DNA from: a virus
Reading direction: 5' to 3' (one strand)
Length of the DNA: 25,670 nt
Virus record (IMG/VR): IMGVR_UViG_3300040815_000701
Location: 1 to 25,670 of that record
This document shows, piece after piece, positions 12,506 through 20,129 of this stretch. The notes beneath the pieces were generated by a model. The model was given only the letters and a program-made list of their open reading frames with translations. It had not been told where the DNA came from and searched no databases. Both the position numbers and the translations under genes were made by a program. Within the stretch, counting starts at the first letter, position 1. Every line of letters starts with the position of its first letter.

Positions 12506-14745
12506 TGAAACTAAACGAAGTAAAATTTGAATATAAGTCCAAACAATACCTAGCAGAAAGTTGGGACGTTTTAACAGAAGCACAACAAGTGTATGTTGGC
12601 TCATGGGAAAAGAAAGTTTGGCCTCTAGTTGAAAACTACAGTAAACTATTTGAAGCAGAACTTACACAAGATCAAATTAATGGTTTGTTTAGTAAAGCAG
12701 AAACAGTTGCATCACAAAGTGGAACTAATCAAACTGTTTTAGGTAAAGCAGGAAAAATTAGTGGCAACATTGCAAGTAAACTAAAAGCAGAAATTGAAAA
12801 ACTAGCCAAACAAGCACAAGATTCACAACCTATACAAAATATTGATAATGCATTTGATGGATTAAGAACACAAATTGCACAAACAATTGGAAAAGGACCG
12901 GGTGGACAAGCAGTTTTAGGTATAGTTGATAAATGGAAAAATTATGTAAAAGAAAATCCAGCCAAAGGTGCATTTGTAATTGCGGCAATGACATCATCAT
13001 TAGCATTTGCAAGTGGTGGTATTGTTTCAGGTATGGCAATTGGTTTCTTTCTTAAATTAGCAAATAATATCTTAACAGGCGACAAATTAAGTAGTGCAGT
13101 TGCAAAAACTGGTAAGCAAATGGCAATTGGTGCTCTTGCTGGTGGACTTGGTAAAGTTGTTGCCGACGCGGCGGCAGATTTATTTCCGGCAGAAGTTACA
13201 GATATATTCACAAGTTCAGATGGAAGTACAATAGACTTGAGTCAAGTTGAAGCAATGAATATGACAGCAGAACAACTTACTCCAGACGCAGTACAAGAAT
13301 TATTACAAACTAGAAATGCATTTTTAGGTTTAGCAAAAGATTTAGCCACAGATAGCCCAGAGGCAAGTGATGCCATTGGTGAACAAATAAAAGAAATTAA
13401 CGATAAGATTTTTGAGTTATCACCAGAAGGTGCAACAGCCAATGAAGCGGCAAACAATTTAGCAACTGAATATGGCATTAAAGGTGATGGTGTTAATTTA
13501 GAAAAAACAACATCCACATCTACACAAGACGGTGATGGTCCTAATGATGTAACAGTTGAACCAGCAGGATCAATTGATGCAGATAAAATACAAGCGGCTG
13601 GCTTAGATTATATGACACAACCTGAGTTAAGTGACGAGTTTAAAGAGTTCTTAGCAGAAAAAGGAATTGACGAAGATCAAATACAAGCACAAGCAGGATT
13701 TGATAGAGCAGTTGGTAATGAAACTTGGCTAGGTGTTAAAGTTGGTGGAGAACAACAACTTCAAGCATTTGATGGCAAAATGCCAGAAGGCTTTAATACA
13801 AATGCCGTAGCACAACAAATTGATATTCCAGATGGACTTCAAGGTGGACAAACTTTCTCAAGTGAAGTATCAACTAGTTTTGATGGACTTGAAGGACAGG
13901 ATTTAAAATTTACTGCTGATTATTCATTTGAAGGTGTAGACGCAGATGGCAACGATGTTTATACAATAAAGAGTGTGTTTATTTCGCCAGAATCTAAAAT
14001 TTCAGACGCAATGCTTGATAGTTTATCCGATTCTGACCAAGAGAAATTTTGGGAATTATACGGAAAATATACTGGTGAAAATATAGATACAAGTGAAGCC
14101 GGTGTTACACAATATATTGATGACTTAAACCAAAAACTTGCAAACGGTTTTGCTGGTGCAGTAGCCACAGTTGCGTTAGCAGGTGCAGTAGCCAATGCAG
14201 AGAATAAACAAACAAAAGAATCATATGTAAGAAACGTTGAAAATCATTTAATGGAAAAATACTTGCAAGAAGGTCCAGCCTTAGATGCTATTAAAAAAGC
14301 GGCAATGGCAACTGTAAAAGGTGTAGGTACTGTGGCAGATAAAGCCGTTGGAGGTGTTACTGCGGCAGGTATGAAAGCGGCCCAAACTGCTATTAAAACT
14401 GGTAAAGCAGTTGGACATGAATTAGGTAATAAAATTACTCTTAAAAAATTACAAAGTGCTTGGGCAAAAGCAGGTAAACCAACCAACATTGCAGGTGTAG
14501 TTCAAGTTATGCAAACAGCAGGCATGGATGATGAACAAATTGGTATACTTAACAAAGAAGTAAAAGATATAGATTTAACTACTAAAGATCAACCAAATAA
14601 AGAACCGGAATCAGGATCAGATGCAAGTGCACCAGAAGCCAGTACAAGTTATATTGATATAGAAAAACTTGCAAACATAATTAAATCACAAGACTTAGAC
14701 GATGAAGTCCGAGCAATTTTAGCCAAAAGTGCAAAGGCGGCATAA
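12505..14745 (+). CDS. Large virion-associated protein with membrane-like segments (746 aa)
   Basis: Begins MKLNEVKFE, with an LxE site at residues 3-5. Residues about 153-190 are hydrophobic and small-residue rich (AFVIAAMTSSLAFASGGIVS, then GMAIGFFLKLA), consistent with one or two membrane segments; another Gly/Ala-rich segment follows (MAIGALAGGLGKVVADAAA). The middle, 240-560, is acidic, Gln/Asp-rich and probably extended. A second LxE-type site, KYLQEGPALDAIKKAA, near residue 588 opens a basic amphipathic Ala/Lys-rich stretch and a small helical domain (KLQSAWAKAGKPTNIAGVVQ). This architecture suits an internal protein processed in the prohead and ejected with the DNA. That is an inference; no enzymatic motif was found. 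TAATG coupling on both sides. Confidence 0.65.
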   Translation: MKLNEVKFEYKSKQYLAESWDVLTEAQQVYVGSWEKKVWPLVENYSKLFEAELTQDQINGLFSKAETVASQSGTNQTVLGKAGKISGNIASKLKAEIEKLAKQAQDSQPIQNIDNAFDGLRTQIAQTIGKGPGGQAVLGIVDKWKNYVKENPAKGAFVIAAMTSSLAFASGGIVSGMAIGFFLKLANNILTGDKLSSAVAKTGKQMAIGALAGGLGKVVADAAADLFPAEVTDIFTSSDGSTIDLSQVEAMNMTAEQLTPDAVQELLQTRNAFLGLAKDLATDSPEASDAIGEQIKEINDKIFELSPEGATANEAANNLATEYGIKGDGVNLEKTTSTSTQDGDGPNDVTVEPAGSIDADKIQAAGLDYMTQPELSDEFKEFLAEKGIDEDQIQAQAGFDRAVGNETWLGVKVGGEQQLQAFDGKMPEGFNTNAVAQQIDIPDGLQGGQTFSSEVSTSFDGLEGQDLKFTADYSFEGVDADGNDVYTIKSVFISPESKISDAMLDSLSDSDQEKFWELYGKYTGENIDTSEAGVTQYIDDLNQKLANGFAGAVATVALAGAVANAENKQTKESYVRNVENHLMEKYLQEGPALDAIKKAAMATVKGVGTVADKAVGGVTAAGMKAAQTAIKTGKAVGHELGNKITLKKLQSAWAKAGKPTNIAGVVQVMQTAGMDDEQIGILNKEVKDIDLTTKDQPNKEPESGSDASAPEASTSYIDIEKLANIIKSQDLDDEVRAILAKSAKAA

Positions 14746-16001
14746 TGTTAATTACAGAAATATTTGAACCTAACAAGCATCATTGGAATATTCTTAATGA
14801 AGCAGAAGGTAAAAACACACATTTAGAACACGTTGAAGATTTAATCTTTAATGAAGGATACAAAGGTGCCTTAAGAGCATTTGATTATTTAGATGCAGTT
14901 AAAGGATTATTAGAAGGTGGACAACCAGAAGGTAAAATTACTGTTAAGTGGGACGGTGCTCCTGCAATTATTTGTGGAATAGATCCAGAAGATAGTAAAT
15001 TCTTTGTAGGCACTAAATCAGTGTTTAATGCAAATACACCTAAAGTTGCTAAATCAGTAGCACAGATTAAAGAATGGTATTCTGAACAACCTTCATTAGA
15101 AGCAAAATTATTAATGGCGTTTAAACTATTACCTAAATTAGGCATAGGAACAGTTGTACAAGGCGATTTCCTTTTTGGCCCAGGTGATGTTAAAACTGAA
15201 GACGTAGGTGATGACAACTGTTATACATTTACTCCTAACACTATTACATATGCAGTGCCAGTTGATAGTGCTATAGGTAAACGTGTCGGTAAAGCAAAAA
15301 TTGGAATAGTATTTCATACAGAATACACAGGTGCTACACTATCAGAAATGACTGCAAGTTTTGGTTATAGTGTAAGAAGTTTACAAGAAACACCAGATGT
15401 ATGGTTTGATGATGCTAATTATAAAGATGTTTCAGGAATTGCAACACTTACTCCAGGTGAAGAAAAAGGCATAGATGATACTATTGCAACAGGGCGTACT
15501 ACACTTAAAAAAGTAGGTACTAAAATGGATGCAGTATTATCGGCAGAATTTGCAAAATTTATTAAACCATTTATTAATAACAATGTAAGAGCTGGTGAAC
15601 AAGTTGGTGAACCTACAAAGTTTTTAGAAAACTTTATGAATTATTACACTGATAAAATGAATAAAGAAATTGAAAAATTAAAAGGTGGTGCAGAAAGTCC
15701 AGCGGCACAAAAACGTATAGATAAAATTGAACAACAAAAACAATTTTTAGCAGATAATAGTAATACGTTACTATTGACATTGGCAGTATATCGTCGTATA
15801 ATAAGTGCTAAATTAATGTTAATTAAAAAATTAAGTAATGTAGATAAAATTGGAACATTTGTAAAAACAGAAAATGGATACAGAGTTACAAACCATGAAG
15901 GATTTGTAGCATTTGGTGTAGACGGTGGAGCCGTTAAACTAAACGATAGAATGGAATTTAATGCATTAAATTTCTCAGCAACTAAAACGTGGGCAAGTTA
16001 A
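14745..16001 (+). CDS. Nucleotidyltransferase / RNA-DNA ligase-like protein
   Basis: 418 aa. KWDGAPAI with Lys68 is the KxDG nucleotidyl-acceptor motif of ATP ligases and capping enzymes. GTVVQGDFLFGPGD is in the place of motif III, HEGFVAFG (Glu385) fits motif IV (EGxV), and AVKLNDRMEF with Lys398 fits motif V. Order and spacing suit a covalent nucleotidyltransferase, with an unusually long insert (about 210-350) that is mostly helical and Lys-rich. Motif V is K-L rather than the classical K-x-K. The start MLITEIFE closely resembles the first residues of T4 Alt (MELITELFDE by memory), an injected head protein that gp21 trims. I therefore infer a virion-packaged ligase-like enzyme. The substrate (RNA, DNA or protein) is open. 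Confidence 0.75.
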   Translation: MLITEIFEPNKHHWNILNEAEGKNTHLEHVEDLIFNEGYKGALRAFDYLDAVKGLLEGGQPEGKITVKWDGAPAIICGIDPEDSKFFVGTKSVFNANTPKVAKSVAQIKEWYSEQPSLEAKLLMAFKLLPKLGIGTVVQGDFLFGPGDVKTEDVGDDNCYTFTPNTITYAVPVDSAIGKRVGKAKIGIVFHTEYTGATLSEMTASFGYSVRSLQETPDVWFDDANYKDVSGIATLTPGEEKGIDDTIATGRTTLKKVGTKMDAVLSAEFAKFIKPFINNNVRAGEQVGEPTKFLENFMNYYTDKMNKEIEKLKGGAESPAAQKRIDKIEQQKQFLADNSNTLLLTLAVYRRIISAKLMLIKKLSNVDKIGTFVKTENGYRVTNHEGFVAFGVDGGAVKLNDRMEFNALNFSATKTWAS

Positions 16002-17237: not shown

Positions 17238-17540
17238 ATGCTTATATTAGAACTTTTTAGCGACGAAAATACAGAATTAACAGAAACCAAAATGGCATGG
17301 GGCCGTTCTGGTAATAAAGTTGTGCGTAAGTACAGATGTTCAATTGGTCGTTTAAAAGGTAAAATTGTAAGTAGTCCAGGCGCTTGTTTTAAAGCACCGG
17401 ATATTAAAAAACGTATTAAGTTAAAAATGACTAAGGCAAAAGTCGGTGCTAGAATGAAGTTGAAATCGAAACGTACTAAACGTATCAATCCAGCAAGTAA
17501 ACGTGTTCAAGCATTAAACAAAGCAGGACGTAGAAAATAA
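17238..17540 (+). CDS. Very basic internal-type protein (100 aa)
   Basis: The N-terminus MLILELFSDEN carries an IxE site and resembles the T4 Alt targeting peptide; it is acidic. From residue 19 the protein is strongly basic: MAWGRSGNKVVRKYRCSIGR, then KAPDIKKRIKLKM, MKLKSKRTKRINPASKR and a GRRK end. Two cysteines (in YRCS and GACF) are 17 residues apart. Removal of a short acidic leader to leave a DNA-binding basic core is just how phage internal head proteins are made, so I infer an internal, DNA-associated protein. By memory, similar basic proteins exist in marine T4-like phages. TAATG coupling to the next gene. Confidence 0.7.
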   Translation: MLILELFSDENTELTETKMAWGRSGNKVVRKYRCSIGRLKGKIVSSPGACFKAPDIKKRIKLKMTKAKVGARMKLKSKRTKRINPASKRVQALNKAGRRK

Positions 17541-17794
17541 TGAAATTTTCAGAATTATTTGAACAACCTATGACAGGCAAAGTAACTAAAGTTGCTGGCG
17601 ATAGTGTTGAAATAAGTGATCCAAAAAAACCTGGAATCACTACTAAAGTTGATTTGAAAACAATGGATGTTGATAACTCAAATCCAAATGCTCCTACGTT
17701 AAAACCTAAGTCAAAAAAGCCACAAGGACAAGGGTCAAAAATTAGACCAGGACAAACAGTTAGTATCGCTTCCGAAGAGAAAAAAAAAGACTGA
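17540..17794 (+). CDS. 84-aa N-terminal domain, probably joined to the kinase by -1 frameshift
   Basis: Begins MKFSELFEQ with (L)FE at 6-8, matching the shared targeting-like peptide. Then comes a small beta-domain, TGKVTKVAGDSVEISDPKKP and GITTKVDLKTMDV, reminiscent of an SH3/KOW-like barrel, and a basic linker ending SIASEEKKKD. In-frame translation stops at 17792-17794, directly after a run of nine A (17780-17788). If ribosomes slip back one base there, translation continues as AGA CTG ACT GAC into the kinase domain and gives one protein of about 302 aa. Confidence 0.7.
   Translation: MKFSELFEQPMTGKVTKVAGDSVEISDPKKPGITTKVDLKTMDVDNSNPNAPTLKPKSKKPQGQGSKIRPGQTVSIASEEKKKD
17780..17788 (+). 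other. A9 slippery run: candidate -1 frameshift site
   Basis: Codons GAG AAA AAA AAA GAC in the upstream frame permit simultaneous -1 slippage (A AAA AAA type). The upstream frame ends four bases later; the -1 frame has no stop until 18445. A weak 4-bp hairpin, CCTT-GAAG-AAGG, begins 11 bases downstream (17799-17810). A single-base sequencing or assembly error in the homopolymer would look the same. Confidence 0.6.
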
Positions 17795-18447
17795 CTGACC
17801 TTGAAGAAGGCATAAACGATCCAGCAATTTTTAAAGCAATATTCCTAGCAGGCGGCCCTGGTAGTGGTAAAAGTTTTATGGTAAAGCAAACGGCTTTACA
17901 ATCTATGGGGTTTAAGTTAATTAATAATGACGCCGCATTTGAAAAATATTTACAAGACGCAGGATTAGATCCAGCAGATCCTGATGTTATTGCTAGTCCA
18001 CAAGGACAAAAAATTAGAGACAAAGCAAAACGAATAACAAAAAGTCTTCTTGCTATGCATCTAGGACAAAAACTAGGTTTAGTTATAGATGGAACAGGCA
18101 AAGACTATGCAAAGATTTCTAAACAAGCACAAACCCTAAGAAAATTAGGATATGAAGTTGGCATGATTTTTGTCAACACAGATTTAGAAACTGCAATTAA
18201 TAGAAACAAAAGTAGAGAAAGAGTATTACCAGATCCTTTGGTCACAAGTATGTGGAAAGATGTACAAAACAATATTGGCAGATTTCACAATTTCTTTGGA
18301 AGAAATATGTTTGTTGTAGACAATTCAGAAGGATCAGACACTAACGGTGTTATTTTAAATATGTATAAAAGAATGCAGGAGTTTGCAGATTCTCCGCATA
18401 CTAGCCCAGTAGCAAAAAATTGGATAAAGAAAATACAAGGAAAATAA
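17788..18447 (+). CDS. P-loop polynucleotide-kinase/zeta-toxin-like domain, no normal start codon
   Basis: IFLAGGPGSGKSF is a Walker A loop (Lys111 in the fused numbering), INNDAAFEKYL resembles the substrate-binding acidic loop of zeta toxins and polynucleotide kinases, LGLVIDGTGKDY is the second strand with a conserved Asp, and INRNKSRERVLPDP is the arginine-rich lid. Between the stop at 17761 and the P-loop there is no ATG, GTG or TTG in this frame (a CTG is at 17791); the first ATG, at 17878, lies behind the P-loop and would yield a dead protein. So the domain needs frameshifting from the gene at 17540, a rare start, or the sequence has an indel. There is no phosphatase domain as in T4 Pnk. 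Confidence 0.75.
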   Translation, partial: RLTDLEEGINDPAIFKAIFLAGGPGSGKSFMVKQTALQSMGFKLINNDAAFEKYLQDAGLDPADPDVIASPQGQKIRDKAKRITKSLLAMHLGQKLGLVIDGTGKDYAKISKQAQTLRKLGYEVGMIFVNTDLETAINRNKSRERVLPDPLVTSMWKDVQNNIGRFHNFFGRNMFVVDNSEGSDTNGVILNMYKRMQEFADSPHTSPVAKNWIKKIQGK

Positions 18448-19103: not shown

Positions 19104-20129
19104 ATGGAATTAAATGATTTAAATAAAATAACGAGAAGTAATAAGTTAAATAACTTATTAAACACTCGCTTTGGATTCGATTTTGATTTATCGAAAATAA
19201 ATGAAACTATTGCTAAACAAATGCTTAATACTGCAAACAGAGAAATGTCTGAAATTGCAGAAAGCAGTGGAGATTATCAAGTAAATAAAAAATACTTAAT
19301 GTCTAAACTAGTTAAAGAAACAATTGAAGCATGGCAAGTAGAAAACAATTTAAATGTTAACGAAGCACCAAAAGACGATAACACAGAATTAGCAAAAGGC
19401 GAATTAGAGCCAGGCGATGGTAAAATTGAACCACAACAAAATTCACCACAAGCACAAAGTAGACGTGCAAACGCATTACGTTTGCTTGTAGGTCCACAAA
19501 ATTACATGAAAGCCAAACGTGCTTTAGATATGTACAAAAAAGGTCAAACAGTTCCCCCAACATTGATGACAGGTTTAATGCCAATTATTGATATGATTGA
19601 TGAAATTATGTCTAGTAATTTAGCAAACGTTAGATTCTTACAAATGGTTGACAAACGTGCAAGAAAGCAATTAGGTATTAAAGAGAGCGTTCTTAAAGAA
19701 GGCGAAATGGAAAGTGCTGAATTAGTATTAGCATCAAAAGACATGGTTGACAGAATTCAAAGTATGTTAGAAGATGTTAGTGAAATGCAGGCAGAAGATT
19801 TACTTCCATTAACAGATCAAATTCGTGACGAAATGGGTAACGAAAAAGCAGAAGCATTTATGAATGCGGCTAAAGGTTCGTTAGAAAGTTTATTAGATGC
19901 AATCACAACTGCAAGAGGCGATATGGATAATGCATCACGTATATTAACTGGTACTGCTGAAGAGTCAGGCACAGATTTAACTGCCGAAGAACCAGAAGCA
20001 GAAGAACCAACTGCAGAACCTGAAGACACTTCAACTGAAGAACCAACTGATGATGTATCAGTTGATTTAGATGCTGGTCCAGAAGGACAAGAAGGCGTTG
20101 ACGATTTAGATAGACAAGAACGTCCGTAA
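19104..20129 (+). CDS. Virion or prohead-core-like structural protein (341 aa)
   Basis: AGGGAA upstream supports the start. The protein is almost wholly helical. A first domain (1-85) is followed by an acidic/Gln-rich linker, a region with RRANALRLLVGPQNYMKAKR, a middle domain (ESAELVLASKDMVDRIQSML, EDLLPLTDQIRDEMGNEKAE, ESLLDAITTARGDMDNASRI) and a long acidic Glu/Pro/Thr tail. KEGEMESAE near 200 could be a protease site. By memory, the LVLASKDMVDR segment is typical of a virion protein of marine T4-like phages. Acidic, helical proteins are also usual for prohead cores (gp22), an alternative. TAATG coupling to the next gene. Confidence 0.6.
   Translation: MELNDLNKITRSNKLNNLLNTRFGFDFDLSKINETIAKQMLNTANREMSEIAESSGDYQVNKKYLMSKLVKETIEAWQVENNLNVNEAPKDDNTELAKGELEPGDGKIEPQQNSPQAQSRRANALRLLVGPQNYMKAKRALDMYKKGQTVPPTLMTGLMPIIDMIDEIMSSNLANVRFLQMVDKRARKQLGIKESVLKEGEMESAELVLASKDMVDRIQSMLEDVSEMQAEDLLPLTDQIRDEMGNEKAEAFMNAAKGSLESLLDAITTARGDMDNASRILTGTAEESGTDLTAEEPEAEEPTAEPEDTSTEEPTDDVSVDLDAGPEGQEGVDDLDRQERP

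Follow-up and report, generated by a model that had tools for sequence, protein, structure and literature searches.

A conserved A9 run between a KOW-like protein and a P-loop kinase is a probable programmed slippage site in phages

Analysis of a 25,670-nucleotide stretch of viral DNA (referred to as the window; IMG/VR record IMGVR_UViG_3300040815_000701), probably from a T4-like phage of marine origin, points to a run of nine adenines (A9) as a conserved and selected programmed slippage site. It would yield two products, one a short KOW-like protein and the other its fusion to the kinase, a reading to which we assign a probability of about 0.72. With normal decoding, translation would end at the TGA at 17792, yielding a KOW-like protein of 84 aa that begins with a capsid-targeting-like leader. 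In some events one base would be gained relative to the frame, either through addition of an A by RNA polymerase or through a -1 slip of the ribosome, resulting in a 302-aa fusion. The leader would carry this fusion into the prohead core, and the prohead protease may then cut LEE/G (the slash marking the cut), setting the kinase free inside the head, from where it would be ejected into the host. Slippage, both its occurrence and its frequency, as well as packaging and cleavage are what we infer from sequence comparison. The features involved are collected in Table 1.

Table 1 Coordinates of the junction and its flanking features in the window.
Feature	Position	Strand	Remarks
Upstream ORF, 84 aa, normal-decoding product	17540-17794	+	KOW/SH3-like small domain, then Lys/Pro-rich tail
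Capsid-targeting-like leader MKFSELFE, L-x-E at its end	17540-17563	+	Putative function, from gp21 consensus and capsid targeting sequence (PMC9026906)
A9 slippage run (candidate)	17780-17788	+	Upstream frame reads AAA AAA AAA
Kinase reading frame, 219 codons post-slip	17788-18447	+	Zeta_toxin/AAA_33-type P-loop kinase
CTG overlapping the TGA stop (CTGA)	17791-17793	+	Most plausible near-cognate start
TGA 17792-17794 stops upstream frame; TGA 17796-17798 stops third frame	17792-17798	+	
Junction motif L-E-E/G, gp21-type prohead-protease consensus	17800-17811	+	Immediately 5' of kinase; predicted cleavage
Walker A (P-loop) GGPGSGKS	17851-17874	+	

The 3' end of the upstream ORF reads ...GAG AAA AAA AAA GAC TGA. 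The kinase frame lies at -1 relative to this ORF, remains open to 18447 after the TAG at 17761-17763, and is the sole open frame past the two TGA stops. An earlier sequence-only reading had held that the kinase has no ATG, GTG or TTG before its Walker A motif, and the frames of the window bear this out: none of the three was found in the kinase frame between the TAG and the P-loop, and the earliest ATG, at 17878, is already past the latter. The same reading had the upstream gene enter AAA AAA AAA and stop four bases on, with a -1 slip fusing both parts gaplessly into about 302 aa, and this was confirmed as well (83 + 219 = 302 aa; predicted junction peptide ...EEKKKRLTDLEE). In the upstream reading frame the heptamer is A AAA AAA (17782-17788) followed by G, which fits an in-phase X XXY YYZ arrangement. 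The likeness to dnaX that had been drawn holds for the kind of run but not for its phase, the run here being A AAA AAA then G and dnaX having A AAA AAG, which is more slippery.

An IMG/VR protein search with the kinase as query returned 592 relatives, the best 80 of which were kept, and a search with the upstream domain brought in L088, L093 and L094. Frame break, exact A9 and GACTGA, without a standard kinase start, recur in eight other contigs from independent assemblies (L002/L003/L008, L004/L005, L006/L007 and L088), always with nine A. The check proposed earlier, conservation of break and A-run in related phages, thus came out positive for both. Including the window, the frame-broken set comprises nine contigs from different metagenomes in five lineages with diverged flanks, the eight others having kinase identities of 59-92% where measured. 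Among the best 80 of the 592 relatives, L002-L008 have no kinase start and share an identical A9GACTGACTGACCTTGAAGAAGG, while in L088 the DNA after GACTGA differs. Even L006 is identical over the 32 bp from the run onward, possibly through recombination; as the lineages are of common ancestry, the run does not represent many independent trials. In L093 and L094 the 302 aa of the fusion occupy a single frame, and A9 is retained in another codon phase (GAA AAA AAA AGA). Single-frame homologues without any run, which the sequence-only reading had named as evidence against slippage, do exist: the more distant L103 and L137-L139, which share the upstream neighbour gene, are fused in frame and have no A-run. 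Yet a conserved frame-broken group coexists with them, and L093/L094 keep their A9. Nearly all remaining kinase homologues examined have their own start or are fused in frame to longer proteins. In the kinase tree, the frame-broken forms, L093/L094 and L103 form one clade (91/97); the tree requires three changes between the broken and in-frame states and its branches are long, which makes the history unsure.

Across the break, purifying selection acts on the kinase. Among frame-broken pairs its dN/dS is 0.24-0.34, the in-frame pair L093/L094 has 0.19, and the synonymous excess is significant for both comparisons with the window (p 2e-5 for L002, 1.5e-11 for L004). Both Pfam matches, Zeta_toxin and AAA_33, lie above their cut-offs (43.6 bits vs 22.3 and 42.5 vs 27). 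Fold neighbours in the PDB are polynucleotide kinase, zeta toxin and adenylate kinases, and viral neighbours are mostly Zeta-toxin/AAA-domain proteins, the best being from Agrobacterium phage Atu_ph07. The earlier proposal of programmed slippage to a short product and a kinase fusion is thus supported, at the level of sequence, by the conserved A9 and break, by purifying selection and by the in-frame relatives.

Elsewhere, long runs are less frequent than expected. In the window, A9 is the sole A or T run of at least 8, although a dinucleotide model predicts 10.9 such runs; shuffling synonymous codons of the window genes gave a mean of 11.6, with at most one run in 0 of 300 shuffles. In G001, a frame-broken relative of 306,714 bp, the junction run is the only A/T run of at least 9, against 23.7 expected. 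Further, all three invariant Lys codons within the run are AAA in all five lineages, vs two of ten in the KOW gene. When the window and loci L095-L179 were scanned mechanically for A-runs of at least 6 at start-less frame breaks, with shifts of +1 or -1 allowed, matches came at two places only, all A9 or A10 and all -1. The broader statement that nearly every A/T run of at least 9 sits at a frame break proved too strong, since longer contigs carry a few others that are non-coding or in frame; it does apply to G001 and to the window.

A second A9/A10 -1 junction (e.g. L143:4788-4796) is found in sister phages at L142-L150, L152-L157, L171 and L177-L179, which share a neighbouring 100-aa gene. 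There, the counterpart of window gene 19104-20129, whose copy in the window is a PHROG 'virion structural protein', ends in SKKK or SKKKS at the run, with TC before it. The domain that follows continues in -1, and in the window this same domain has its own ATG (20129). All 13 listed loci have [VI]xE after the second junction, and domain identities fall as low as 35%; relatives of this domain were sought in annotated phages and none were found. At the place equivalent to the CTG of the window, the codons are GTA, ATA or GTC. The A9 cases show the better phase A AAA AAG, then a stop, and downstream RNA structure is strong in several lineages (z -3 to -5), which makes a ribosomal mechanism likelier here than at the junction of the window (site 1). 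L143 and L147 also contain a GC-rich, terminator-like hairpin, AAAGCGGCCGGAGTGGCCGCTTT, about 50 nt past A9 and within the frame of the downstream domain.

For site 1, we lean towards slippage by RNA polymerase rather than by the ribosome, given that the run always has nine A, occurs as A9 in two phases, has the poorer ribosomal phase and shows no downstream structure. RNA-polymerase slippage calls for a homopolymer of about nine or more A/T, and all lineages have A9, a length that allows efficient slippage of bacterial RNA polymerase (PMC5009743); counting against it, one study found that T runs make E. coli RNA polymerase slip more than A runs do (PMC6260861). A programmed -1 slip of the ribosome alone on A AAA AAA, of the lambda G/GT or dnaX type, would give the same products with no role for RNA polymerase, and is in our view a possible but rather unlikely explanation. 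It would fit the fact that every break in the scan is -1 and never +1, it may draw on the phase and structure of the sister junction, and tail and capsid genes of phages often use frameshifting (PMC5009743, PMC10885494). However, the site 1 heptamer is the poorer one (PMC5009743), and in every lineage the run exceeds what a ribosome needs by two A's. Pseudoknot-free folding of the frame-broken sequences gave no significant RNA structure downstream of site 1 (z about 0, range -0.7 to +1.8). By reading, GAAGAG or GAGG either abuts the 5' end of the run or lies 2 nt before it, at a non-canonical spacing, and a well-placed Shine-Dalgarno-like stimulator was not found at this site. With neither of the two found, a purely ribosomal mechanism would be weak.

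The main sequence-compatible alternative to slippage is termination-reinitiation, in which translation stops at the TGA and restarts at the overlapping CTG (17791) to give a separate kinase. The CTG is present in every frame-broken lineage, even though combining CTA with TAA or TAG as the stop would preserve the Leu (L093/L094 have CTA) and TAA is the commoner stop among the window genes (TAA 21, TGA 7, TAG 2; n=30). A purine-rich GAAGAG or GAGG is available upstream, and translational coupling is frequent in frame-transition genes (PMC3711429). Nevertheless, reinitiation leaves unexplained the exact A9, its presence in in-frame relatives and its standing as the only run of at least 9 in 306.7 kb. 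The CTG lies 11-13 nt from the purine stretch (by reading), the leader of the product, counted through the motif, would be just 6 residues long, vs 10-16 in 30 of 31 stand-alone leaders and 8 in the other, and the sister junction has GTA, ATA or GTC at that place. We regard reinitiation as improbable. Still less probable is phase variation at the DNA level, with replication slippage between A9 and A10 toggling the fusion in the population. A9 is a plausible contingency tract, and poly-A phase variation has been described in bacteria (PMC3441752), but A10 was seen at site 1 in 0 of 9 frame-broken contigs and the in-frame relatives keep A9 with another upstream base count.

A sequencing or assembly error, the true run being A10 within a continuous gene, had been put forward as the simple alternative. 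Homopolymers are error-prone on some platforms, but this would have to apply to nine contigs from different metagenomes and five lineages with diverged flanks, and L093/L094 demonstrate that assemblies do return an in-frame version where one exists. A9 and break in eight other independent contigs, together with purifying selection on the kinase, exclude such an error for practical purposes. An equally implausible pseudogene, with the kinase start lost and decay under way, would account for the missing standard start codon and was rejected on the dN/dS of 0.24-0.34 within frame-broken lineages, where the P-loop is intact and the kinase full length.

The protein upstream of the run matches Pfam KOW2_Spt5 weakly, below the curated cut-off (E 0.0059). 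Relatives of this domain were found at 70-96% identity in ten IMG/VR contigs and at 42% in one further contig, and none were found in annotated phages or in bacterial and archaeal genome contigs. The AF2 model of the natural fusion of L094 places beta strands at residues 11-45 with moderate confidence and a low-confidence linker (residues 77-85) at the junction between two predicted domains. Directly 5' of the kinase, [LIVM]xE is present in 58/58 distinct homologues, against a background of 2.1% per position. Stand-alone kinases carry capsid-targeting-like leaders, for example MLSFSEYLEE or MDNFKEHLELME, whose length is 10 or 12 residues in 24/31 distinct cases, 10-16 in 30/31 and 8 in one; the 8-residue MKFSELFE of the upstream protein is likewise a short leader ending in L/I-x-E. 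Cleavage by T4 gp21 takes place after L/I-X-E, and for head targeting 10 IPIII residues are enough (PMC9026906). The frame-broken relative G001 encodes both gp21 (E 3e-29) and gp23 (E 2e-99), the latter with LxE motifs near its N-terminus. Leader and gp21-type motifs thus lend indirect support to the earlier suggestion of a short packaged domain. As a counterpoint, [LIVM]xE/G is homologous across the kinases and could have been retained for folding.

Short [LIF]xE leaders also begin neighbouring proteins of the window at 14745, 17238 and 20129 (MLITEIFE, MLILELF and MKASDFITE), possibly marking a cluster of head-packaged proteins. The first of these positions belongs to a DUF6267 family protein (14745-16001; Pfam E 1.7e-107), a few genes upstream.

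The closest precedent is found in tssM1 of Citrobacter rodentium and tssM3 of Yersinia pseudotuberculosis, which undergo poly-A transcriptional slippage in opposite phases (PMC4256274). They share with the present case a poly-A run before a stop and two length variants, and slippage yields the long form in one and the short form in the other, as it would in the frame-broken and in-frame A9 groups. TssM, however, is a bacterial T6SS membrane protein and tssM1 has a run of 11, whereas here a phage protein has exactly nine and a protease-like junction motif. In dnaX (-1 ribosomal in E. coli, RNA-polymerase slippage in Thermus; PMC5009743) an A-run likewise gives two products with a common N-terminus; here the gene is another, the phase is A AAA AAA, and no stem-loop or well-placed Shine-Dalgarno-like stimulator was found at site 1. 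The T4 internal proteins, which have a capsid targeting sequence and are cut by gp21 at L/I-X-E (PMC9026906, PMC3012670), resemble the present proteins in their short N-terminal LxE leader, and gp21 and gp23 are encoded in G001. Packaging in the present case is predicted from sequence. We know of no T4 internal protein that is attached via slippage.

Tail chaperones provide the most familiar cases of slippage in phages. In lambda G/GT, a tail chaperone, as in other phage frameshifts, a -1 fusion in a dsDNA tailed phage likewise gives short and long forms, whereas the fusion proposed here carries an enzyme, and to our knowledge no protease motif accompanies G/GT-type frameshifts. Retroviral Gag-Pol compares in its way of working only: slippage gives a minority of structural proteins that bear an enzyme, which a protease releases. 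The two are non-homologous, the present case concerning a DNA phage with a putative packaging part. Tentatively, poly-A slippage in T4-like marine phages could be a Gag-Pol-like way of loading cargo: at two separate junctions it would add a cargo domain to a head-targeted protein in a set ratio, and the prohead protease motif found there would let the cargo be freed within the head.

No published account of this junction was found in open-access text; new in this analysis are the [LIVM]xE motif, the capsid-targeting-like leaders, gp21 and gp23 in a relative, and the second junction. If true, a recoding event would meter an enzyme into a capsid at two loci of related phages, and the idea of a packaged kinase becomes directly testable. 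Gene callers easily miss the fusion, the sole kinase start available to them being the internal ATG past the P-loop. Further cases may be searched for by a lone A9 or A10 at a frame break with [LIV]xE within a few codons.

Two other runs should be mentioned. A third candidate (L210:8476-8485, G011), known from a single contig, combines A10 with a -1 break between a glycosyltransferase-8-like ORF and an open frame of 335 codons, 321 of which follow the run. By far the longest run seen consists of 16 T, or A16 when read from the opposite strand, and lies within a 164-codon open frame (L206:12621-12636, G006).
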